Shown here piece after piece: positions 1,063 through 11,155 of a stretch of DNA of 11,205 nucleotides. A program made the translations under genes and the position numbers. The stretch is from Christensenella sp. UBA3792 (lineage in GTDB: Bacteria > Bacillota > Clostridia > Christensenellales > CAG-138): positions 25,785-36,989 of the forward strand of contig DFEW01000050.1 of NCBI GenBank assembly GCA_002369195.1, in the 5' to 3' direction. The stretch's first letter is position 1. Each line of letters starts with the position of its first letter. The notes under the pieces were generated by a model, which ran no database searches, had not been told where the DNA came from, and was given only the letters and a program-made list of their open reading frames with translations.

Positions 1063-2198
1063 AAAAGATCCTGAAGAACAAAGCGCTGCAATCGATTCTG
1101 GCAGCTTTGCTGTGCATCATCGTCGGCGTGCTCGTCGGCTACGTCGTGCTTCTGCTGATCGAGCCGAAGGGCGCAAACGATGCAATCGCCGGCGTTCTCA
1201 AGAACTTCTTTGCGCGTAAGAGCACGGCGCTGCGGCTGAAGGAACTCGGCAATACGCTCGTCAAGACGATGCCGCTGATCCTGTGCAGCTTGTCCGTCCT
1301 GTTTGCATACAAGGTCGGCCTCTTCAACATCGGCGCCGCCGGTCAGTACGTGGTCGGCGCAGGCGCGTGCCTCTACTGCGCGCTGGCGCTCGGACTCCCG
1401 TGGTACGTCTGCCTGCTCGCGGCGATCGTTGCGGGCGCGCTGCTTGCCGCGATCTCCGGTCTTTTGAAGGCATACTGCAACGTCAACGAGGTTATCTCCT
1501 GCATCATGCTGAACTGGATCAGCTTGTATGCGGTCAACACGCTGCTGTCGCCGTTCGCGCCGGTCGGCAAGAAGGACACCTACGAGATTTCGCAGATCAA
1601 CCCCGGCGCGCTGCTGCCGCGGCTCGGTCTCGATAAGCTGTTCAACGGCAACACCAAGGTCACGATCGCGCTGCCGATCACGATCATCCTCGCGATCCTG
1701 ATCTGGATCCTGCTCGAAAAGACCAAGCTCGGCTATGAGCTGCGCGCAACCGGTCTCAACAAGAACGCGGCGAAGTACTGCGGCATGAAGGAAAAGCGCA
1801 ACATCATCCTGACGATGATCATCGCGGGCGCGCTCTCCGGCGCAGCGGCAGGTCTGTACTTCCTCTCCGGCTTCAAAGAGTGGGACATCAACCAGAGCTC
1901 GGTTCCGGGCATGGGCTTCAACGGCATCGCAGGCGCGTTCCTCGGCGCATTGAACCCGATCGGCTCGATCTTCTCGTCGTTCTTCATTCAGCACATCACC
2001 GACGGCGGCGCGCTGAACCTGAACACGCAGAGCTATCCGCCGCAGATTGCGGACCTGATCTCCTCGATCATCATCTATCTGTGCGGCTTCGTCCTGTTCT
2101 TTAAGACGACGATGAACCGTCTCATCGACCGTGCGGAGGAGCGCAAGCTGCAAAAGCAGAAAGCTGCCGCAGGGAATACGGAAGGAGGTAACAAATAA
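1059..2198 (+). CDS. ABC importer permease 1, nucleoside type (NupP/YufP-like)
   Basis: Integral membrane permease (379 aa) of the BPD_transp_2 family, forming half of the heterodimeric channel of the importer. It begins with a basic N-terminus and a long hydrophobic helix (about 11-34), then about eight to ten further helices. Family landmarks are FNIGAAGQ (89-96), NVNEVISCIMLNWI (141-154) and the cytoplasmic coupling loop around LRATGLNKNAAKYCGM (228-243) followed by SGAAAGLYFLSG. Length is normal for the larger of the two permeases. The ATG overlaps the ATPase stop by 4 bp. Near its 3' end lies a perfect AGGAGGT (2183-2189) that serves the next gene, whose ATG shares one base with this TAA. 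The usual partner lipoprotein gene (BMP family) is not in the window and would be expected upstream. Confidence 0.93.
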   Translation: MKKILKNKALQSILAALLCIIVGVLVGYVVLLLIEPKGANDAIAGVLKNFFARKSTALRLKELGNTLVKTMPLILCSLSVLFAYKVGLFNIGAAGQYVVGAGACLYCALALGLPWYVCLLAAIVAGALLAAISGLLKAYCNVNEVISCIMLNWISLYAVNTLLSPFAPVGKKDTYEISQINPGALLPRLGLDKLFNGNTKVTIALPITIILAILIWILLEKTKLGYELRATGLNKNAAKYCGMKEKRNIILTMIIAGALSGAAAGLYFLSGFKEWDINQSSVPGMGFNGIAGAFLGALNPIGSIFSSFFIQHITDGGALNLNTQSYPPQIADLISSIIIYLCGFVLFFKTTMNRLIDRAEERKLQKQKAAAGNTEGGNK

Positions 2199-3139
2199 TG
2201 GATCTTTTGATACAGTATACGCTGGTATTTACCTCCGTCTTAACGCTCGTAGCACTCGGCGGATGCTTCTCGGAGCATTCCGGCGTCATCAACATCGGTC
2301 TCGAAGGCATCATGGTCATCGGCGCGCTCGGCGGCTCGCTGGTGCTGAAGTACATGAGCGTGACCACGCCGGCGATCTGGGTCGTTCTGGCAACGGTCGG
2401 CGTTGCGATCGCGGCTGGCGTCATCTACTCGCTCCTGCTCGGCGTCGCTTCCATCACGTTCAAGGCGGACCAGACGCTCGTCGGCACGGCAATGAACATG
2501 CTCGGCGTCGCAGCGGCAACGGTCGTCGTCAAGTCGGTGAACATCGCGGAAACGATGGGCTCCAACAACTCCCCGAAAGTCATCTACAGCGCGGTCAAGG
2601 ATAAGCTGCTGATCGTGCAGGGCACCGAATACAGCTGGTTCCTGCTCTTCGCTTTGGTGCTGCTGGTCGCATCGTACATCGTTCTCTATAAGACCAAGTT
2701 CGGTCTTCGTCTGCAGGCGTGCGGCGAGCATCCGCAGGCGGCGGCTTCCGTCGGCATCAACGTGCTGAAGATGCGCTACGCGGGCGTCATGATCTCCGGC
2801 GCGCTCGGCGGTCTCGGCGGCATCGTGTACATCACGGCGGGCGTTTCGCAGTGGTCGTTCGACGTCGGCGTCGCGGGCTTCGGCTTCCTGTCCCTGGCGG
2901 TTATGATCTTCGGTCAGTGGAAACCGGTGCGCATCGTGCTCGCGGCCTTGCTGTTCGGTCTGTTCCGCGCACTCGGCAGCGTCTACACGGGCTTCGACTT
3001 CCTCAACAACCTGAACATCCCGAAGAGCGTGTACAACATGCTTCCGTACATCGTCTCGCTGATCGTCCTCGCGCTGACCTCGAAGCGCTCCCGCGCGCCG
3101 AAGGCGGAGGGCATCCCGTACGACAAGGGCATGCGCTGA
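2198..3139 (+). CDS. ABC importer permease 2, nucleoside type (NupQ/YufQ-like)
   Basis: Second BPD_transp_2 permease (313 aa), the smaller partner of the channel heterodimer. Landmarks are SEHSGVINIGLEGIM (25-39), ADQTLVGTAMNMLG (90-103), and the coupling loop around ACGEHPQAAASVGINV followed by the SGALGGLGGIVYITAG helix. The tail ends in GIPYDKGMR, the kind of PYxxxxR terminus common in this subfamily. The start is fixed by AGGAGGT eight bases upstream and the TAATG overlap with the preceding gene. It is the last gene of the transport operon: a strong hairpin terminator follows 17 bases after the stop. Nucleoside or purine uptake is the likely role from family resemblance; other small ribose-containing substrates are possible. 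Confidence 0.93.
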   Translation: MDLLIQYTLVFTSVLTLVALGGCFSEHSGVINIGLEGIMVIGALGGSLVLKYMSVTTPAIWVVLATVGVAIAAGVIYSLLLGVASITFKADQTLVGTAMNMLGVAAATVVVKSVNIAETMGSNNSPKVIYSAVKDKLLIVQGTEYSWFLLFALVLLVASYIVLYKTKFGLRLQACGEHPQAAASVGINVLKMRYAGVMISGALGGLGGIVYITAGVSQWSFDVGVAGFGFLSLAVMIFGQWKPVRIVLAALLFGLFRALGSVYTGFDFLNNLNIPKSVYNMLPYIVSLIVLALTSKRSRAPKAEGIPYDKGMR

Positions 3140-3156
3140 GCATTCTCGAATTTCTC

Positions 3157-3184
3157 AAAAGGACGCGATCCGCGTCCTTTTTTC
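3157..3184 (+). terminator. Rho-independent terminator of the ABC importer operon
   Basis: An 11-bp stem (3157-3167 with 3171-3181; GC core GGACGCG/CGCGTCC, loop ATC) runs straight into a T tract ending at 3183. It lies just after the permease 2 stop and before the promoter of the next gene. Confidence 0.9.
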
Positions 3185-3190
3185 GTGCCG

Positions 3191-3219
3191 TTGCAATCCG
3201 GACGACCGCGTGATATGAT
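3191..3219 (+). promoter_or_regulatory. Sigma-A-type promoter with extended -10 for the P-loop NTPase gene
   Basis: TTGCAA (3191-3196), a 17-base spacer, then TATGAT (3214-3219) preceded by TG at 3211-3212, which makes an extended -10. It sits directly after the upstream terminator and about 30 bases before the start codon, so the downstream gene is probably transcribed on its own. Confidence 0.75.
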
Positions 3220-3249
3220 GGAGAAAAGCAATCGGAGAGGAAAAAGGCG

Positions 3250-3768
3250 ATGGTGATTCTGATCACGGGCGCGTCCCACACCGGTAAGACGCTGCTGGCG
3301 CAGAAGATGCTGGAACGGTACCGGTTTCCGTATCTTTGCATCGATCATTTGAAGATGGGGCTCATTCGGAGCGGGCGGACGAACCTGACGCCGGAGGACG
3401 ACGATGCACTCGTCGACTGCCTCTGGCCGATCGTTCGCGAGATCATCAAGACCGCGATCGAGAACGAGCAGAACCTGATCGTGGAGGGCTGCTACGTCCC
3501 GTTTGACTGGAGATCGGATTTTACGGCGCGCTACCTCCGTTCGATCCGGTTTATCTGCCTTGCCATGTCGGACGATTACATCGCCTCGAATGCTTCGCAG
3601 ATCGCGTCGCATGCTTCGGATATCGAAGCGAGGCAGGACGATTCCTACTGCACGGTCGATTGGCTCCTTCGGGAAAACCGCCGCGTGCGCGAGGGCTTTT
3701 TGCGCGCAGGCGAACCGGTCGCACAGATCGAGAGCGACTATACATCGACGATCGAAGGGCTGTTGTAA
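3250..3768 (+). CDS. Small P-loop NTPase/kinase-like protein
   Basis: A 172-aa cytoplasmic P-loop protein. The Walker A GASHTGKT (residues 7-14) follows the first beta strand (VILIT). A second hydrophobic strand NLIVEGCYV (75-83) and a third FICLAMSDDY (101-110) are spaced as in adenylate-kinase-like, 2-phosphoglycerate-kinase-like and zeta-toxin-like small-molecule kinases; the arginine-rich stretch RENRRVREGF (141-150) could be the lid. No transmembrane segment is seen. The start is supported by GGAGAGG (3234-3240) nine bases upstream. The gene has its own promoter and is followed by a terminator, so it is not part of the transporter operon or of the module beyond it. Its phosphoryl acceptor is unknown; I recognise the fold class but not a specific enzyme. 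Confidence 0.8.
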   Translation: MVILITGASHTGKTLLAQKMLERYRFPYLCIDHLKMGLIRSGRTNLTPEDDDALVDCLWPIVREIIKTAIENEQNLIVEGCYVPFDWRSDFTARYLRSIRFICLAMSDDYIASNASQIASHASDIEARQDDSYCTVDWLLRENRRVREGFLRAGEPVAQIESDYTSTIEGLL

Positions 3769-3823
3769 CGCGGTTCCGGCATGAAAGCGCTCGAATGCGG
3801 AACACCGATAAGGAGGAAAAGTT

Positions 3824-3856
3824 AAAACGAAGGGAAGCGATTCCCTTCGTTTTTTT
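3824..3856. terminator. Bidirectional terminator between convergent genes
   Basis: A 10-bp stem (3827-3836 with 3841-3850) with a GCGA tetraloop (GNRA type), extended by A/T pairs to 3824/3853 and followed by a T tract to 3856 on the + strand. On the - strand the same hairpin is followed by TTTT. It can therefore end both the P-loop NTPase transcript and the leftward zinc-ribbon/SPFH operon, which stops at 3890. Confidence 0.88.
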
Positions 3857-3889
3857 GAGCTGGTCATATGCAAGAAGTGAGAGAAATAA

Positions 3890-5458
3890 TTACTCCGCTC
3901 TTTTCTCAACCTCGTTTGCTACAGAAATATCTTTGAATTCTATTTTTGAGTTGCCGTGGAACAATTCACAACTAAATGTTGTATTTCCGGAAATATCCAT
4001 CTGTGCAGTGCTGTAAACCTCTCGCTTTTCAACATTTACAGCTTTTAGAGTATGGTTCCCTTCCAGTAAGCTGTCTTTCCAGAGCAGCGTCCCTCCGTTA
4101 GATACTGTTCCGATTTGAACATCATCTAAATAGATCTCCATATCATATTTGCTGAATAGCATATTGTCACCGGAGGTAACGACTATATCTACATAGCACA
4201 GCTTCTTGCAATACAGATCTATCCGAACATCCGGCATAATGCTTTTTCCTGCCTTATAGCTTTGACCGACAACAATCCATCGATCGGGATCCCAAGAAGG
4301 ATCGTTATCATTGGAGACAACTGTAGTAAAGCCTGCATCTAAAAGCGCAGTTCGAGCTTCCTCTATGGTTTTCCCTTCGACATCAATTACAGTAAGCTTC
4401 AGTGGCTCTGGGTCTTGCTCTTCAATGGCAGTTGTATCATCCGGCATTATGGAACGGGTGGATACAAACAACGACCTTCCTTTGTTGATGGTTTCTATGA
4501 GCGGTGCTGCTGCTCGATTCCACGCGATAAAGAGGCCGGTTATTAGTATCGCGATATAAACAATCAGTAGGACACTTCCGACAATCGCACGGTGCTTAAC
4601 TCTTTCCTTTATCAAGATTTCCGTTTGATTAATGCTGTTATACGTGTCGGCGATTGTTTTATCGTTTCCAAGGCTGACATCTGCCCGACGTTTCAGTTCA
4701 TCTCCTTTAGTGGTCCATTGATCCGTCCAGAATATCGTTCGGTCATCCACCTTTGCTTCATAGATAAATGCAACCTTTGATTTGATAAACAGCAGTGCTT
4801 CGATAATCGATCTTTTATCCGAAGGGAAGATGTAGTTTTCTATGAAGGCAGCCTTCTTCTGCTCGTCCTGCAGCAGATTATCCTTACCAATCCGCTTTAT
4901 CGATGGCTGAATGAGCCTCCTATAAATCGTACGAACGATAAGGGGAATCAATACAAACAAAACGTTGACTACGATCCAAGCCGTGCTGCTCTTACCACTG
5001 TCTTTTGCCGCAGCAATTTGATCGTCGTATGCTTGTATATGATCCTTGAAAGTTTCAACAGATTCGTTACACTCTTGACTGATAAATACAAACCCGCAGT
5101 CGGGACACTTCGCTACATGGCTTTGCACAACGCATCCACAGTTCGGGCATTTTTCAACCCCGCCGCGATAGGTCGTAGTGCGTGTAGTATTCCGCTCCTG
5201 CTTAATTCTTTTCAGCTCTTCTTCTTTTTGACGGAGCGCTTCCTTTTGGCGCTGTCGTTCCTCTTCATCACTTTGCCTTTTTTGTTTGAGCAATTCTTCC
5301 TGTTGCCGGAGCGAATCCTCTTTCTTTTTTAGTTCCTCCTGCTGAACTTGGATGCGTATGCGCATGTATTCCGGATATCGCGGATTCTCTGCGCCGCAAT
5401 ACCTGCAATGCTTACTACTTTCCTCTATTTGTCTGCCGCATTTAATGCAGTATGTCAT
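3890..5458 (-). CDS. Membrane protein with two zinc ribbons, coiled coil and PASTA-like domain
   Basis: A 522-aa protein of mosaic architecture; I do not recognise a named family for the whole. In order: zinc ribbon 1 (C4, C7, C18, C21); a highly charged K/E/Q/R-rich coiled coil (about 34-88); zinc ribbon 2 (C104, C107, C118, C121); a hydrophobic segment (about 160-178); a mixed domain (about 180-288); a second clear transmembrane helix (about 290-312); a PASTA-like domain (about 353-418, with GKTIEEARTALLDAGF); and a C-terminal beta-rich domain (about 420-512) with a PEGA-like LLEGNHTLKAVNV strand pair. PASTA domains generally bind peptidoglycan fragments or beta-lactams outside the cell; zinc ribbons are expected inside. 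GAGG (5467-5470) is eight bases before the ATG. The gene is last in the leftward operon, 50 bases after the SPFH gene. A role in linking envelope state to a cytoplasmic SPFH scaffold is inference. Confidence 0.85.
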   Translation of the reverse strand: MTYCIKCGRQIEESSKHCRYCGAENPRYPEYMRIRIQVQQEELKKKEDSLRQQEELLKQKRQSDEEERQRQKEALRQKEEELKRIKQERNTTRTTTYRGGVEKCPNCGCVVQSHVAKCPDCGFVFISQECNESVETFKDHIQAYDDQIAAAKDSGKSSTAWIVVNVLFVLIPLIVRTIYRRLIQPSIKRIGKDNLLQDEQKKAAFIENYIFPSDKRSIIEALLFIKSKVAFIYEAKVDDRTIFWTDQWTTKGDELKRRADVSLGNDKTIADTYNSINQTEILIKERVKHRAIVGSVLLIVYIAILITGLFIAWNRAAAPLIETINKGRSLFVSTRSIMPDDTTAIEEQDPEPLKLTVIDVEGKTIEEARTALLDAGFTTVVSNDNDPSWDPDRWIVVGQSYKAGKSIMPDVRIDLYCKKLCYVDIVVTSGDNMLFSKYDMEIYLDDVQIGTVSNGGTLLWKDSLLEGNHTLKAVNVEKREVYSTAQMDISGNTTFSCELFHGNSKIEFKDISVANEVEKRAE

Positions 5459-5508
5459 TCATTTTTCCTCAATCGATTCGTGAAGCGTACATCTGCTTCT
5501 ATTGTTTG

Positions 5509-6867
5509 TTATTTGGACGGAACGGGAGGCATGATGCTTGGCAGCACGTCTTGCAGCTCACTTATATCAGACAGTTTTTCCCATGCCTGCATTCCCGATT
5601 TCCATAATAGTGTTTCTTTATCGATGGAGCCTGATAAAGCCATTTGTTTCAAGGCGGTCGCATCGTAAGGTCCTGCCGGCTGCCCGTTAACGGCCACATA
5701 GTATGCAGGATTTGGCACGATTGGAGGGACCGTCATCTGCCCAACATTCATGTTGGACATAATGCCATTCATCGTTCCCGCGATATTTTGTCCAACGGCG
5801 CCGCCTAACGCCATGCCCACCATCATTGTTGCCGGATTGAAACCCATTCCGCCGCTGGTTTCTGCCCCAATATTGACGGAACCGGCTCCATTTGTGCCCA
5901 TCTGACCGAGAGCGTTTGCACCCGCGATACCGACTTCCGCCTGCTTTTCGATTTGGAAGGCTTCGATATTGGAGCTTTGCGTCTGCTTATGCTGTGAATA
6001 TTGAGCTTCTTCCCGTTTGATCCGTAAGGTTTCCTCATAATCCTTGGCTTCAATACGCTGTTTGTCCGCGATATTCTTGACCATCGCCTGCATCTGTGCT
6101 GCGGTGGTAGCCGTAACAACATCTTTAGTTACTGCCATAAGATGCTCATACGCAGGACTGGTTTTGTCGATTTCAATAGCACCGATGTCGACGGCAGTCG
6201 CCGTGACTCCAAAGGATTCTTTCAGCCTTTCTTTTATATCGAGCTCGATTGCATCATTGATAAGGGCTGTTTTACTCTCAAGCTGAACAACCGGAATATT
6301 GTTTGCGGCAGGAGCATTCGCAATCGTATCCTTGACATAGCGGTTGATTGCGTCCCGTATTTGTGTTTGAAAATCGTCCAAATCAAAGTCGATTAATCTG
6401 TGTAGCTTTATAAAGCTGCGGTAATCCGATACGTTGAATGTCACGTTTCCTCTGACTGCGACAGGTACGCCAAAGTCGGGGAAGCGAGGATCAAACACGT
6501 CAAAAAATGGTACGCCGAACCGTGCTTGAATTACCTTTGCGAGGTTGATAAAATACACTTCCGCTTGAAACGGTGTGTCCCCGCCATACGCCAAACCGAT
6601 GATCGAAGACAGTACAGGCAGGTTGGCTGTTTTTATGGCTTTGTTGAACGGTCCCTCAATGAAATCCTGCATTGTGCCGTTTTTCTGACGGTAAACGAAT
6701 ACGGCAACTTCGCCGTCTTTTACGTGCAAAGTTGATCCAAGTCGCAATGCGTTCTCTCTTTTGCTGCTTCCAGGCTGTACTCCGGCGGGATGCCACTTCC
6801 AAACTAAGTAATTTGGTTCGTCACAGCGAATAACATTCAGAATCCCCTTGTTTCGAAAGATACCCAT
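5509..6867 (-). CDS. SPFH-domain protein, YdjI/virion-core-like, with C-terminal GYF_2 domain
   Basis: A 452-aa cytosolic or membrane-peripheral scaffold protein. The N-terminal SPFH (band 7) region of the YdjI type covers about residues 15-235, starting with the characteristic LVWKWHP and including VYFINLAK and an AVDIGAIEID strand at its end. It is followed by an Ala/Lys/Glu coiled coil (about 240-312), a Gly/Ala/Met/Asn-rich hydrophobic linker (about 312-375) and a GYF_2/DUF4339-like domain (about 388-440) with GPY, W422 and GMQAW. Many relatives end in a zinc ribbon; here GYF_2 takes that position and the ribbons are on neighbouring proteins. SPFH proteins oligomerise and organise membranes; B. 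subtilis YdjI acts with PspA and the membrane proteins YdjG/YdjH. AGGAGG (6873-6878) precedes the ATG by five bases. The regulator gene lies 58 bases upstream on the same strand, with no convincing promoter in between. Confidence 0.9.
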   Translation of the reverse strand: MGIFRNKGILNVIRCDEPNYLVWKWHPAGVQPGSSKRENALRLGSTLHVKDGEVAVFVYRQKNGTMQDFIEGPFNKAIKTANLPVLSSIIGLAYGGDTPFQAEVYFINLAKVIQARFGVPFFDVFDPRFPDFGVPVAVRGNVTFNVSDYRSFIKLHRLIDFDLDDFQTQIRDAINRYVKDTIANAPAANNIPVVQLESKTALINDAIELDIKERLKESFGVTATAVDIGAIEIDKTSPAYEHLMAVTKDVVTATTAAQMQAMVKNIADKQRIEAKDYEETLRIKREEAQYSQHKQTQSSNIEAFQIEKQAEVGIAGANALGQMGTNGAGSVNIGAETSGGMGFNPATMMVGMALGGAVGQNIAGTMNGIMSNMNVGQMTVPPIVPNPAYYVAVNGQPAGPYDATALKQMALSGSIDKETLLWKSGMQAWEKLSDISELQDVLPSIMPPVPSK

Positions 6868-6925
6868 TTCTGCCTCCTACTATATTCAATAAAAATCGAT
6901 TGTGTGCCTTTTCTTTTTGTTCGCA

Positions 6926-7132
6926 TTATTGCGGATGCACAGCATCGCAAATGTCGCCTACATTGCAGTTCAGGTATTCGCAAATGCGCAGAAGAACCGA
7001 CAGAGCGACCTCCTCATTTTTTCGCAACTTTGTCATCGTACCTGTAGAGATAAGCAAATCCTTGCGCATGGTGGCAGGAGAAATGTCTCGCTCCAACAGG
7101 AGCATCCACAGCCTTTTATAACTGATCTTCAA
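6926..7132 (-). CDS. Small Xre/Cro-C1-type transcriptional regulator (TTG start)
   Basis: A 68-aa single-domain helix-turn-helix protein of the HTH_26 (YozG-like) kind. It reads MKISYKRLWMLLLERDIS, then a recognition region TGTMTKLRKNEEVALSVLLRICEYLNC and a short NVGDICDAV tail, which is essentially the whole family domain. No ATG is available before the conserved K-I-S-Y. TTG at 7132 is preferred because AGGAGG (7141-7146) lies eight bases upstream and because the family normally begins M-x-I-S-Y; the in-frame TTG at 7138 would leave only two bases after the ribosome site. It is the first gene after a near-consensus leftward promoter and precedes the SPFH gene, so it likely represses or controls its own operon and perhaps the divergent gene. 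That regulation is inferred from position only. Confidence 0.87.
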   Translation of the reverse strand: MKISYKRLWMLLLERDISPATMRKDLLISTGTMTKLRKNEEVALSVLLRICEYLNCNVGDICDAVHPQ

Positions 7133-7140
7133 GAGCAAGC

Positions 7141-7146
7141 CCTCCT
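7141..7146 (-). promoter_or_regulatory. Ribosome binding site that decides the regulator's TTG start
   Basis: On the - strand AGGAGG occupies these positions. The spacing is eight bases to TTG at 7132 but two bases to TTG at 7138, so the former is the plausible start. Confidence 0.75.
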
Positions 7147-7194
7147 ATATGACAAATGAACATTATGATCGGATGATTGTTTGCTACTGTAATA

Positions 7195-7223
7195 ATTCTA
7201 TTCGGCGAATGGTAATATGTCAA
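7195..7223 (-). promoter_or_regulatory. Leftward sigma-A promoter of the regulator-SPFH-zinc-ribbon operon
   Basis: Reading the - strand: TTGACA (7223-7218), a 17-base spacer, TAGAAT (7200-7195). The -35 is perfect and the -10 differs from TATAAT by one base. It lies about 60 bases before the regulator start codon and points away from the rightward promoter at 7305-7333. Confidence 0.85.
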
Positions 7224-7243
7224 TATGAAATCATGACTATATG

Positions 7244-7260
7244 GCAAGAATTCGCAAGAA
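7244..7260. promoter_or_regulatory. Candidate operator: heptamer direct repeat between divergent promoters
   Basis: GCAAGAA occurs twice (7244-7250 and 7254-7260), offset by ten bases, about one helical turn, so both copies face the same side of the DNA. It sits between the two divergent -35 elements. Binding by the neighbouring Xre protein is a guess. Confidence 0.35.
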
Positions 7261-7262
7261 GT

Positions 7263-7282
7263 TATCAAATTGTATTTTGATA
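7263..7282. promoter_or_regulatory. Candidate operator: inverted repeat TATCAAA-N6-TTTGATA
   Basis: A perfect 7-bp inverted repeat (7263-7269 and 7276-7282) with a six-base spacer lies 22 bases upstream of the rightward -35 box. The size and symmetry suit a dimeric helix-turn-helix regulator. In AT-rich DNA such a repeat can also arise by chance. Confidence 0.4.
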
Positions 7283-7304
7283 TTGATGTTTTTTAACAAG
7301 ATGT

Positions 7305-7333
7305 TTGACATTCCATCTGCGGAGGGGTATTAT
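7305..7333 (+). promoter_or_regulatory. Rightward sigma-A promoter of the small zinc-ribbon gene
   Basis: TTGACA (7305-7310), a 17-base spacer, TATTAT (7328-7333). The -35 is perfect and the -10 is one base from consensus. Transcription would begin near 7340, giving an untranslated leader of about 50 bases before the ATG at 7389. Confidence 0.87.
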
Positions 7334-7341
7334 ATTTATAT

Positions 7342-7357
7342 CCAACAAATGTGTTGG
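7342..7357 (+). promoter_or_regulatory. Small hairpin at the predicted 5' end of the zinc-ribbon transcript
   Basis: CCAACA (7342-7347), loop AATG, TGTTGG (7352-7357): a perfect 6-bp inverted repeat starting within a few bases of the expected transcription start. It could be a 5' mRNA-stabilising stem or, as DNA, an operator overlapping the start site; the sequence alone cannot separate these. Confidence 0.4.
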
Positions 7358-7388
7358 TAATATCTATCTTTTGCTGAGGATTGCGCTG

Positions 7389-7970
7389 ATGTCTTATTGC
7401 ACGAAATGTGGGAACGAATTGTTCCCGGGCTCTGTGTTTTGCGCCTACTGCGGTGAACCGGTTATGCGCAAACGTCCATCTGCACCTGAAACGCCGATCG
7501 ATCACACGTCTGAAAGAAATGCAGCACCGGCTGCTCGTCCCTTAACGTCACGCAGCAATTCGGCAGATACTGTAAGAAAACTGATACAACATATTGAGAG
7601 CCTAAATAAGCATGGTCAGATAGATCAGGCAATAGAGTATTGTGATGTTATTCTTACTGCTGATCCGTCAAATAGCGAAATACTAAAAAAGCGGGATCAG
7701 TTATCGCAGATTATCACAAACCCGAATGTGACCATCGTATTCAGAGCTTCAAAAAGGATTGTTCTACAGACTTCAATCAATAATACGATGTCTGCAAAAT
7801 ATGCTTCCGGCGACATGCGGCATTTTACTCTGAATGTCGGTACCTATGTCGTTAAGTTTCACCTTGGATCGAAGCGATATGAGCGGACAATTACAATCGC
7901 GGATCGTTACAGCAAAATCATGATCCATGTTGCAGCAGGAAAAATGAAAAACTCGATCCAAATCATTTAA
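7389..7970 (+). CDS. Small zinc-ribbon protein with C-terminal beta domain
   Basis: A 193-aa protein without a recognisable named family. It has an N-terminal zinc ribbon MSYCTKCGNELFPGSVFCAYCG (four cysteines at 4, 7, 18 and 21, the same spacing as ribbon 1 of the leftward membrane protein), a low-complexity Pro/Ala/Ser/Thr linker (about 28-58), a helical TPR-like pair (about 60-105, with QIDQAIEYCDVILTADPSN) and a beta-rich C-terminal domain (about 113-185) with a PEGA-like FTLNVGTYVVKFHLG strand pair. No transmembrane helix is evident. The frame is open upstream to 7305, but ATG 7389 is chosen because GAGGA (7376-7380) is eight bases before it and because zinc-ribbon proteins of this type normally begin with this motif. 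It is the only gene of the rightward arm, transcribed divergently from the regulator-SPFH operon, and probably works with it; its function is unknown. Confidence 0.85.
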   Translation: MSYCTKCGNELFPGSVFCAYCGEPVMRKRPSAPETPIDHTSERNAAPAARPLTSRSNSADTVRKLIQHIESLNKHGQIDQAIEYCDVILTADPSNSEILKKRDQLSQIITNPNVTIVFRASKRIVLQTSINNTMSAKYASGDMRHFTLNVGTYVVKFHLGSKRYERTITIADRYSKIMIHVAAGKMKNSIQII

Positions 7971-8028
7971 TAGAATTCATAAGCATAACCGTTTGTCAAA
8001 GATGCGAGGTAGCCCAAGACTAATATCG

Positions 8029-8053
8029 GAATCGCCCTAACGGGCGCTTCTTT
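8029..8053 (+). terminator. Weak terminator-like hairpin after the small zinc-ribbon gene
   Basis: CGCCC (8033-8037), loop TAAC, GGGCG (8042-8046), with outer GAA/TTC pairing after one mismatch and a CTTCTTT tail. The tail is not a clean T run, so efficiency is doubtful. The stretch 7971-8087 otherwise shows no gene and no convincing vegetative promoter. Confidence 0.4.
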
Positions 8054-8087
8054 GTATGCAAACGCAGATTTCGGGCATGCTGTGCGC

Positions 8088-8654
8088 ATGGGGATCCTGA
8101 TCGCGCTTTTCATATTGCTGTTTCTTTTGCTGCTGCTGTCGATGCCGATTTTGGTGCGCGTGCGCGCGCGGCTCGGCGTGCGCGGGGCGGTCGTGCATGC
8201 GCGGCTGTACCTGCTCGGGCTGATCCCGGTTCCGATCCGCCTGCGGGTGTATCTGCTCAAAAAGCCGTACTTTACGCTGTGCATCGGCAAAAGGCGCATC
8301 CGGCTCGGATCGCGCTCCGGCGGGGCGGGCGGCGCGCACAAAGGCGTGCGGGCGGAGCGGCTTTGCGTTTCGGTCACGGTCGGCGTGCGCGACGATCCGG
8401 CAGGCGCGACGGTGCTTGCGGGAACGCTCGGCGTACTCTTCTCAATGCTCGTGCCTGCAATCGCGGGATCGGGAACGGTCGCGGTGCATCCGATCCGCCG
8501 ACCGATGCTGCGGCTGTCGCTCGATGCGTTTTTGATCGCGCAGCCGCCGGTCATGCTCGCGGGCGTTTTGCACAAGAAGCGTATAGCGCGGGCGAAGGAT
8601 GCAAACAATAGGCGTATTCCGAAAGAAAAGAGGACCGAATATGCATCCTGTTGA
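8088..8654 (+). CDS. DUF2953 (YtfI-like) sporulation-associated membrane protein
   Basis: A 188-aa protein with one strongly hydrophobic N-terminal helix (about 2-24) and then a basic, beta-rich body beginning VRVRARLG, with an LYLLGLIPVPI strand typical of DUF2953. The C-terminus is again very basic. The function of the family is not established; it is found in endospore formers next to ytfJ/gerW, as it is here. The start is uncertain: ATG 8088 places the transmembrane helix at the very N-terminus, but no clear ribosome site precedes it; GTG 8082 and TTG 8052 are in-frame alternatives. The stop lies inside the gerW start region (14-bp overlap). In many Clostridia this gene follows scpA/scpB; here it follows the accessory segment instead. 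Confidence 0.8.
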   Translation: MGILIALFILLFLLLLLSMPILVRVRARLGVRGAVVHARLYLLGLIPVPIRLRVYLLKKPYFTLCIGKRRIRLGSRSGGAGGAHKGVRAERLCVSVTVGVRDDPAGATVLAGTLGVLFSMLVPAIAGSGTVAVHPIRRPMLRLSLDAFLIAQPPVMLAGVLHKKRIARAKDANNRRIPKEKRTEYASC

Positions 8655-9054
8655 AACCATTCTGCAAACGACCATGCGCGAGGTCAAGAACATCATCGAC
8701 GTGAACACGATCGTCGGCAACCCGATCTACGGCGAGGGTGGGGCGGTGCTGATCCCCGTCTCAAAGGTCTCGCTCGGCTTTTTCGCGGGCGGCGGGGATT
8801 TTCCGACGCAGACCGTCGCGCGCAAGGGGCAGCCCGACAACGACGCCGACCGCTACCCGTTTCTGGGCGCGAGCGTCGTCGGCGTCTCGATCACGCCGAA
8901 GGCGTTCCTGTACATGCAGGGCGGCAAGGCGACGCTGCTGCATGCCGACTGCGACAATACGCTCGACCGGCTCGTCCAGCTGATTCCGACCGCGATGAAC
9001 GAGATTCGCGAAGCGCTCGACGATCTGCGCCGCGCCCCGGAGGAGGAAGCGTGA
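8641..9054 (+). CDS. gerW: GerW/YtfJ family sporulation protein
   Basis: A 137-aa member of the Spore_YtfJ family, which in Bacillus is produced in the forespore and is needed for proper spore germination. Recognisable family blocks are VGNPIYGEGG (25-34), VLIPVSKVSLGFFAGGGDF (36-54) and GVSITPKAFLYM (81-92), followed by an acidic helical tail; length is standard. The start is ATG 8641 with GAGGA (8630-8634) six bases upstream; the longer open frame beginning at 8599 lacks a ribosome site and family support. It overlaps the DUF2953 gene by 14 bp and its TGA overlaps the next GTG start by 4 bp. The ribosome site for the next gene is embedded in its own last codons. Confidence 0.93.
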   Translation: MHPVETILQTTMREVKNIIDVNTIVGNPIYGEGGAVLIPVSKVSLGFFAGGGDFPTQTVARKGQPDNDADRYPFLGASVVGVSITPKAFLYMQGGKATLLHADCDNTLDRLVQLIPTAMNEIREALDDLRRAPEEEA

Positions 9055-10904: not shown

Positions 10905-10961
10905 GTTCTGTGCATGGCGCCGTTTTTTCGCGTCCGCGCGGAGTTTCTTCCTATGTACCAA

Positions 10962-11096
10962 ATACGATATTTATATCGTATACGGTAATAACGGATACGG
11001 TAATAACGAATACCGTATCCGATACGGTAGAGAATAATAAGTATCGTATCCGTTACGGTAAGGAAGAATCAAAAAATACCGTATCCGTTACGGTAT
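10962..11096. repeat. Cluster of TACGGTA/TACCGTA palindromic repeats
   Basis: Within 135 bases the heptamer TACGGTA or its complement TACCGTA occurs seven times exactly (10981, 10996, 11011, 11023, 11054, 11077, 11089), with related one-mismatch copies. They build three perfect inverted repeats: 10962-10981 (9-bp arms, TT centre), 11011-11029 (9-bp arms, one-base centre) and 11076-11096 (8-bp arms, five-base centre). There is also a 14-base tandem direct repeat (10980-10993 and 10995-11008, period 15). The two short open frames crossing it encode repetitive TVITDTV-like peptides without ribosome sites and are not taken as genes. Confidence 0.85.
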
Positions 11097-11155
11097 AGAA
11101 ATCTTTTTCTCAAGCGGAAAAACACCGCATCACGTGCATTGCGCACACCCAAATG

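Follow-up and report, generated by a model that had tools for sequence, protein, structure and literature searches.

An SPFH/zinc-ribbon gene module with a variable membrane partner in an inserted block of a Christensenella genome

The stretch of DNA analysed here, which we refer to as the window, comprises 11,205 nucleotides of contig DFEW01000050.1 from Christensenella sp. UBA3792. It codes for an Xre-like helix-turn-helix (HTH) protein (P0003), an SPFH protein with a GYF_2 domain (P0002), a protein with two zinc ribbons, hydrophobic segments and a PASTA domain (P0001, hereafter the partner) and, on the opposite strand, a protein with one zinc ribbon (P0004). The SPFH gene and the ribbon gene, often together with the HTH gene, almost certainly represent a real module, which is probably not a damaged form of a known module but an undescribed one for surveillance of the cell envelope. 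A first-pass annotation of the window had proposed a module of all four genes, and Pfam searches and coordinates place each of them where that annotation had put it.

The locus and its insertion site

The features of the locus are as follows.

3890..5458, minus strand: partner protein P0001, 522 amino acids (aa), with ribbons, coiled coil, hydrophobic segments, helical core and PASTA domain
5509..6867, minus strand: SPFH protein P0002, 452 aa, with Band_7_1, a C-terminal GYF_2 domain and a proline-rich linker and tail
6926..7138, minus strand: regulator P0003, 70 aa, Xre-like, TTG start, HTH_26 (Pfam, E-value 1.5e-17)
7195..7223, minus strand: operon promoter TTGACA-17-TAGAAT, sigma-70-like at 11/12 positions
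7251..7268, no strand assigned: candidate operator TTCGCAAGAAGTTATCAA, with three mismatches to TTCGCAAGAAGTTGCGAA, 27 bp from the -35 box and centred at -71.5
7305..7333, plus strand: divergent promoter TTGACA-17-TATTAT, sigma-70-like at 11/12 positions
7389..7970, plus strand: divergent one-ribbon protein P0004, 193 aa, in the insert and outside the conserved module
3824..3853, minus strand: terminator-like hairpin with a 13-bp stem, at the end of the operon
3136..8050 (approximate limits), no strand assigned: inserted block of 4.9 kb, delimited by blastn against congener loci, junction sequences and composition

On the minus strand, the HTH_26 gene P0003 is followed by the SPFH-GYF_2 gene P0002 and the two-ribbon/PASTA gene P0001 (7138-3890). 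Due to the short gaps of 58 and 50 bp between the three genes and the terminator-like hairpin at 3853-3824, a single operon is likely; the hairpin scan returned nine such sites in the window compared with 4.8 ± 2.3 in shuffled sequences. P0002 matches Band_7_1 at residues 37-233 (Pfam, E-value 1.4e-23) and GYF_2 at residues 389-438 (E-value 2.3e-17) and has no membrane segment. P0001 begins with a first ribbon (residues 1-24, Zn_ribbon_3, Pfam E-value 1.9e-6), followed by a coiled coil, a second ribbon (103-127), a hydrophobic segment (160-178), a helical core, another hydrophobic segment (292-310), a PASTA domain over the Pfam cut-off (356-416, E-value 4.7e-7) and a beta-rich C-terminal region. 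The single ribbon of P0004, with 24.3 bits, scores slightly under the Pfam cut-off of 25. P0004 has the intergenic region and the insert in common with the operon, and the shared intergenic region is only suggestive of a link to the module; P0004 is probably a passenger or a local accessory.

The operon is located in an insert. In congeners, a permease-like gene, which corresponds to window positions 2198-3139, adjoins a gene pair matching positions 8052-9054. We examined the site in 22 other genomes of the genus, eight of which were uninformative, and in all 14 readable ones the block of approximately 3136-8050 is absent, with both flanks on one contig and 41-231 bp apart. The island-like setting noted in the first-pass annotation is thus borne out by an empty site. 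The permease is 94-99% identical to that of the window in five of the 14 readable congeners and 50-53% identical in the other nine. The AT-rich segment with back-to-back promoters described at first pass was likewise recovered: GC content is 40-51% over approximately 3.75-8.0 kb and 56-68% around it, the sequence being AT-rich from about 3.85 kb on, and the promoters lie at 7223-7195 (minus strand) and 7305-7333 (plus strand). A P-loop kinase-like gene in the block (3250-3768), which has sub-threshold Pfam matches, shows a host-like GC content, and the insert may therefore be composite. The insert lacks the hallmarks of an integrative element (integrase, tRNA target, terminal repeats): there is no tRNA in the window, Pfam found no recombinase among the insert genes scanned, and the insert edges compared have no repeat longer than 8 nt in common. 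The protein record of P0001 is backed by three contigs, the longest of 98,756 bases, so the gene is not confined to the present contig. The minus-strand operon is best explained as a horizontally acquired member of a widespread SPFH module.

Conservation of the module and variation of the partner

A pattern scan over one genome per species gave 221 relatives of the SPFH protein, and the best 80 of the 221 were fetched with their surroundings; since the patterns came from P0002, the fetched loci are biased towards close relatives. Two sets were used. The 82-locus set contains the 80 fetched loci, the family locus L082 and the window, and served for the HTH, motif, P0004 and PspA counts. The 81-locus set contains 79 of the 80 (the SPFH open reading frame (ORF) of L140 was not picked), L082 and the window. 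Loci L079-L081 duplicate L094, L093 and L120 and were removed. Genes were called with a simple longest-ORF script, with which shadow ORFs occur, and as one of these hides the HTH gene of the window, HTH counts were made by tblastn.

In 71 of the 81 loci, a two-ribbon gene on the same strand is at most three genes away from the SPFH gene. It lies directly upstream in 67 of them, at position -2 in two, at +1 in one (the window) and at +2 in one. The immediate upstream same-strand gene carries a ribbon in 70 of the 80 loci with a called upstream gene, compared with 19 of 749 genes farther away; the ten loci that lack such a neighbour include four at contig ends, one with a shadow ORF and the window. 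An HTH homologue (at least 55% identity, same strand, up to 3.5 kb upstream) is present in 38 of the 68 loci that have more than 2.5 kb of upstream sequence. A reciprocal search with the partner alignment over 291 class-level genomes, in which up to seven candidates were scored per genome, gave one strong match outside the genome of the window, and this match is flanked by an HTH gene (79%), an SPFH gene (65%) and a site with three mismatches; a second, weak match in these genomes has no HTH, SPFH or site in its flanks. According to record titles, the fetched loci belong to Clostridia, Bacilli (Streptococcus equinus, Bacillus sp.), Collinsella, Gardnerella, Acholeplasma and other groups, and many are metagenome-assembled; the SPFH-ribbon pair is shared by Clostridia, Bacilli, Collinsella and Gardnerella, and the pair plus HTH by Clostridia, Streptococcus equinus and Acholeplasma.

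The four-gene module proposed at first pass therefore holds for the SPFH and ribbon genes and often for the HTH gene, which recur together, and fails for P0004, for which tblastn found no full-length homologue in any of the other 81 module loci. The best relatives of P0004 (35% and 31%) are small one-ribbon proteins encoded at L083 7035-7634 and L084 9823-10365, which are different AT-rich patches in congeners; reading through the gene lists of these two loci, without profile searches, revealed neither a partner nor an SPFH gene. In L108 and L124, a divergent gene coding for a one-ribbon, multi-transmembrane protein of 186-187 aa adjoins the HTH gene on its upstream side, comparable to P0004 in the window, and tblastn of P0004 gave no match to either.

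P0002 has the SPFH (Band 7) fold according to both Pfam and Foldseek: its model (mean predicted local distance difference test (pLDDT) score 71.3) matches structures of HflK/C, stomatin, flotillin and QmcA. The C-terminus of the model matches the GYF domain of Myxococcus xanthus GltJ (7z3c), by name an adventurous gliding motility protein, which has the same kind of GYF domain; the comparison is confined to that domain. Among 80 SPFH proteins, 79 have no hydrophobic segment and 79 a GYF_2-like signature, and mean column identity is 70% across 49 aligned sequences. As proline-rich linkers (78/80) and PP-containing tails (75/80) are common in these proteins, contacts between the GYF domain of one subunit and the tail of another are conceivable.

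The partners were compared in two sets. For the alignment and the family listing, we used the window together with the 70 loci with a ribbon gene directly upstream (set A1, n=71), and for segments, post-core lengths and identities the 71 two-ribbon genes located up to three places from the SPFH gene. The alignment shows an invariant Lys before the first Cys of ribbon 2 and, in the helical domain that follows, a near-invariant Pro-Asn and an invariant Trp. A hydrophobic segment is present in 64 of 71 partners, and the window partner belongs, as a divergent member, to a subtype in which an additional hydrophobic segment precedes the core; L125, L130, L136, L155, L159, L167 and L172 are of the same subtype. 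In the P0001 model, 211 residues, located in the helical core and coiled coil, have a pLDDT of at least 90. In five distant SPFH paralogues, the reading frame of the SPFH domain also encodes a ribbon matching the partner profile (E-values 4e-9 to 5e-6), which would fit a physical link between SPFH protein and partner. Beyond the core, the partners differ: fewer than 60 residues follow it in 31 of 71, and DUF6591 forms the C-terminus in 11 of 71. DUF6591 recurs in 11 of the 33 sequences of a downstream-gene set, which consists of P0004 and 32 of 44 downstream genes (excluded were the partner of the window and 11 genes with much overlap or at a large distance).

Partners vary even beside nearly identical SPFH proteins. 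In seven pairs of loci with SPFH identity of at least 90% (90-98.5%), the identities of the partner cores are 53, 41, 89, 31, 32, 44 and 32%; all but one of these values lie between just 31 and 53%. The seven pairs are not independent, as four fall among the related loci L144, L145, L147 and L148. Over 54 pairs with SPFH identity of at least 80%, drawn from 43 three-gene loci, mean identity is 88.0% for the HTH protein and 48.7% for the partner core. At the DNA level, the SPFH genes of L119 and L122 are 95.5% identical and the first 159 nt of the partner gene 84%; apart from one further 66-nt piece, the rest of the partner gene does not align. In L168 and L171, both from Collinsella tanakaei, the outer chromosome aligns on both sides and the partner gene does not. 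L145 and L148 are a counter-example, with an alignment that continues through the partner. Over the 1.1 kb before the SPFH gene, most of which is partner sequence, GC content averages 9.9 points under the host flanks and falls short of them by more than 5 points in 46 of 68 loci, while the GC content of the SPFH gene tracks the host. The low values may be a sign of exchange, or they may stem from amino-acid use and the intergenic part.

The HTH protein and its candidate operator

A near-palindrome, TTCGCAAGAAGTTGCGAA, lies upstream of the HTH gene, and the earlier suggestion that the Xre-like protein sets expression thereby gains a candidate operator. At up to three mismatches, it occurs up to 250 bp upstream in 34 of 45 HTH loci, a set that L094 and L119 entered with partial HTH matches, and in none of 37 loci without HTH (up to 3.5 kb upstream of the SPFH gene; seven of these loci have less than 2.5 kb upstream). 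The total is 37 such sites in 1.29 Mb. The HTH loci that yielded the pattern also supplied its first counts; independent checks come from the loci without HTH, whole genomes, G171 and the promoter spacing. Across 24 genomes, all but one with the HTH gene, the 16-base core with up to one mismatch has 18 copies, all just upstream of HTH and never two in one genome. Among the 14 sites with exactly two mismatches in these genomes, three precede HTH and 11 lie elsewhere.

Thirty-two of 44 upstream stretches contained a site (up to four mismatches) together with a promoter of the set score, and the other 12 were dropped. In 27 of the 32, including the window, the site lies 26-28 bp before the -35 box and is centred near -71.5; it is 12-13 bp closer in four and centred at -94.5 in one. 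The promoter scan gave 11 sites in the window and 7.9 ± 2.6 in shuffled sequences and is by itself weak evidence, but the minus-strand promoter is independently supported because its spacing to the conserved site equals that in the relatives. Sites fixed in place upstream of the -35 box are more typical of activators. Since the candidate site is centred at -71.5, the HTH protein would more likely act on its own operon as an activator. A second imperfect inverted repeat, with the core CCAACA-AATG-TGTTGG, is located at 7332-7367, at and just downstream of the -10 box of the divergent promoter.

Relation to known systems and possible function

The closest parallel is the pspA-ydjGHI system of B. 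subtilis, which likewise combines a soluble SPFH protein with membrane proteins, one of them with a zinc ribbon, in a membrane-stress complex. Recruitment of the soluble SPFH protein YdjI to the membrane requires YdjG/YdjH, YdjH interacts with YdjI, and YdjI localises PspA (PMC8581546); YdjG has a zinc ribbon (PMC9239133). Unlike this system, the module has no pspA, its SPFH protein carries GYF_2, it often has a dedicated HTH gene and site, and its partner is variable; the partner is likened to YdjG/YdjH by architecture only. As to expression, which in the B. subtilis system is under sigma-W control, the window shows a sigma-70-like promoter together with the conserved site. NfeD-SPFH operons (FloT/YuaF, QmcA/YbbJ) also place an SPFH scaffold beside a small membrane partner, whereas the partner here is a ribbon/helical-core protein, with no NfeD match by Pfam in the case of the window, and the SPFH protein has no membrane segment. 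A survey that divides prokaryotic SPFH proteins into 12 subfamilies describes NfeD operons (SPFH1, 2, 5) and the soluble groups SPFH8 and SPFH9 (PMC2636767), and its main text mentions neither 'zinc' nor 'GYF'. With the PASTA kinases (PknB/Stk1), P0001 has one PASTA domain in common, but it has no kinase domain match, with an NCBIfam score of 15.4 against a cut-off of 450. The open-access literature, which leaves subscription papers mostly uncovered, yielded no account of such an SPFH/zinc-ribbon/GYF module, also by way of defence, DUF6591 or the operator sequence, judging from titles, the openings of abstracts and selected passages.

We propose that the module is a PspA-independent envelope-surveillance scaffold with exchangeable membrane sensors, a function to which we give about even odds on the basis of gene content and comparison. 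Along the cytosolic side of the membrane, the SPFH proteins would form a ring or cage, and the cytosolic ribbons and helical core of the partner would dock this cage, by analogy with YdjH and YdjI. GYF_2 could bind the proline-rich tails of adjacent subunits or of clients, and the exchangeable outer domain of the partner (PASTA, DUF6591, another or none) might sense an external ligand or the condition of the wall. The HTH protein would bind the candidate site at -71.5 and tune its own operon, and the output would be to protect or organise the membrane locally, with no ESCRT-III/PspA effector involved. More tentatively, and with less confidence than in the scaffold itself, one might speculate about a surveillance system of gut and rumen bacteria in which interchangeable membrane receptor subunits, swapped by recombination, plug into a slowly changing cytosolic SPFH-GYF cage. 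If so, a lineage could redirect what it senses outside the cell (wall fragments, bacteriocins, phages), with cage, regulator and single operator left unchanged.

Several observations weigh against the surveillance scaffold or parts of it. The window partner lies downstream of the SPFH gene, unlike in 69 of the 71 loci, and the HTH gene is missing from 30 of 68. The site in the window has one degenerate half, which holds its three mismatches, and in whole genomes a reversed control pattern has 36 sites at up to two mismatches, not split by mismatch, compared with 32 for the real pattern; because the control sites outnumber the real ones, the case for TTCGCAAGAAGTTGCGAA rests on the location of its best copies and on the spacing. 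The outer region of P0001 is modelled without confidence (pLDDT below 50 over 391-501), and the ribbon on the SPFH paralogues may be a generic one, ribbons being alike in general. PASTA, which the first-pass annotation had treated as a defining part, occurs in the window and in at most one other of the 71 partners, so PASTA-based wall sensing is not a general rule; it is not among the 25 commonest of 73 partner families, listed down to two members, and while about ten other partners look PASTA-like by eye, Pfam called no PASTA in the three tested (L094, L110, L168). Finally, fast turnover of the partner fits a conflict role equally well.

That conflict role is the alternative we take most seriously, though we think it rather unlikely. 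Here, the module would serve in defence against phages, bacteriocins or toxins, with the SPFH cage as effector or scaffold and the polymorphic partner as a receptor that changes against attackers. Near-identical SPFH proteins with different partners, including L168/L171 in syntenic wider surroundings, speak for such a role, as do the GC drop upstream of an SPFH gene that tracks its host and a patchy, inserted locus; in addition, the downstream-gene set contains one match each to ThsB-type TIR, SUKH and DUF4062. However, low GC of ribbon and intergenic DNA may stem from amino-acid use, and PADLOC gave nothing convincing in the four proteins, the best match being LmuB (E-value 8e-4) to residues 39-195 of P0001, the coiled-coil region. 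Defence families occur both near the module and far from it: a scan that reports families, not proteins, gave Gabija, TIR and reverse-transcriptase matches in near genes (128 of 426 scanned) and Cas1 and restriction matches in genes more than 6.5 kb from the module (118 of 235 scanned); of 130 genes sampled at each distance, two near and 12 far ones that run off contig ends are not included. There is also little sign of carriage by mobile elements. A plasmid search gave no match over more than 24% of the protein, one phage-labelled record was found, and a pattern search of IMG/VR gave none. The record MT835670.1, an unannotated 'Bacteriophage sp.' from human faeces, holds a 58% relative of the SPFH protein at 14466-15833.

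The remaining explanations are weaker. The locus could be a remnant or PspA-less derivative of pspA-ydjGHI that uses PspA or LiaH encoded elsewhere, which we regard as improbable. A control search found Band_7_1 in B. subtilis as well, presumably in YdjI, and the plan of a ribbon membrane protein with a soluble SPFH protein is alike. Against this, tblastn with five valid PspA queries (one of six was a wrong-frame ORF) found no PspA in any of the 82 module loci, and PspA passes the Pfam cut-off in just eight of 38 module-bearing genomes and two of 103 family genomes; it was not found in the genome of the window, which is 73.6% complete. Moreover, the SPFH protein carries GYF_2, an own regulator and site are often present, and the module genes are conserved rather than decaying. 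The first-pass description of the locus as lacking PspA is in line with these counts, and as the homologues co-occur and pspA is not part of the locus elsewhere, the locus does not look like a degraded ydjFGHI operon. Still less probable is that TTCGCAAGAAGTTGCGAA represents an intrinsic terminator of the upstream gene and not an operator: short hairpin potential and adjoining T-runs exist in several loci, but arms and loop are both conserved in sequence, several variants disrupt the pairing, the spacing to the -35 box is fixed, and the site tracks the HTH gene. A chance gathering of unrelated genes in one AT-rich insert has next to nothing to recommend it. P0004, without a counterpart in other module loci, may be such a case, and the position of the partner relative to the SPFH gene is unusual; for the core, this explanation is refuted by the recurrence of the SPFH-ribbon pair from Clostridia and Bacilli to Collinsella and Gardnerella.

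Bacterial SPFH proteins are widespread and the role of most is unclear, the known ones acting with NfeD, proteases or PspA. The module indicates that a pair of SPFH and ribbon protein can exist without PspA. Regulator, one site, scaffold and swappable partner together make up a small recurrent set that could be transferred to a laboratory strain, in which the effects of partner changes would be testable, and TTCGCAAGAAGTTGCGAA provides a DNA signature for finding the HTH-bearing form.

Apart from the module, the window contains a group of repeats. At 10956-11100, 3' of a gene that we take to be pseudouridine-synthase-like, short repeats based on TACCGTATCCGTTACGGTA, both direct and inverted, form a cluster, and the exact 19-mer has no match in 296 loci (those overlapping the window were not checked for reaching that stretch).

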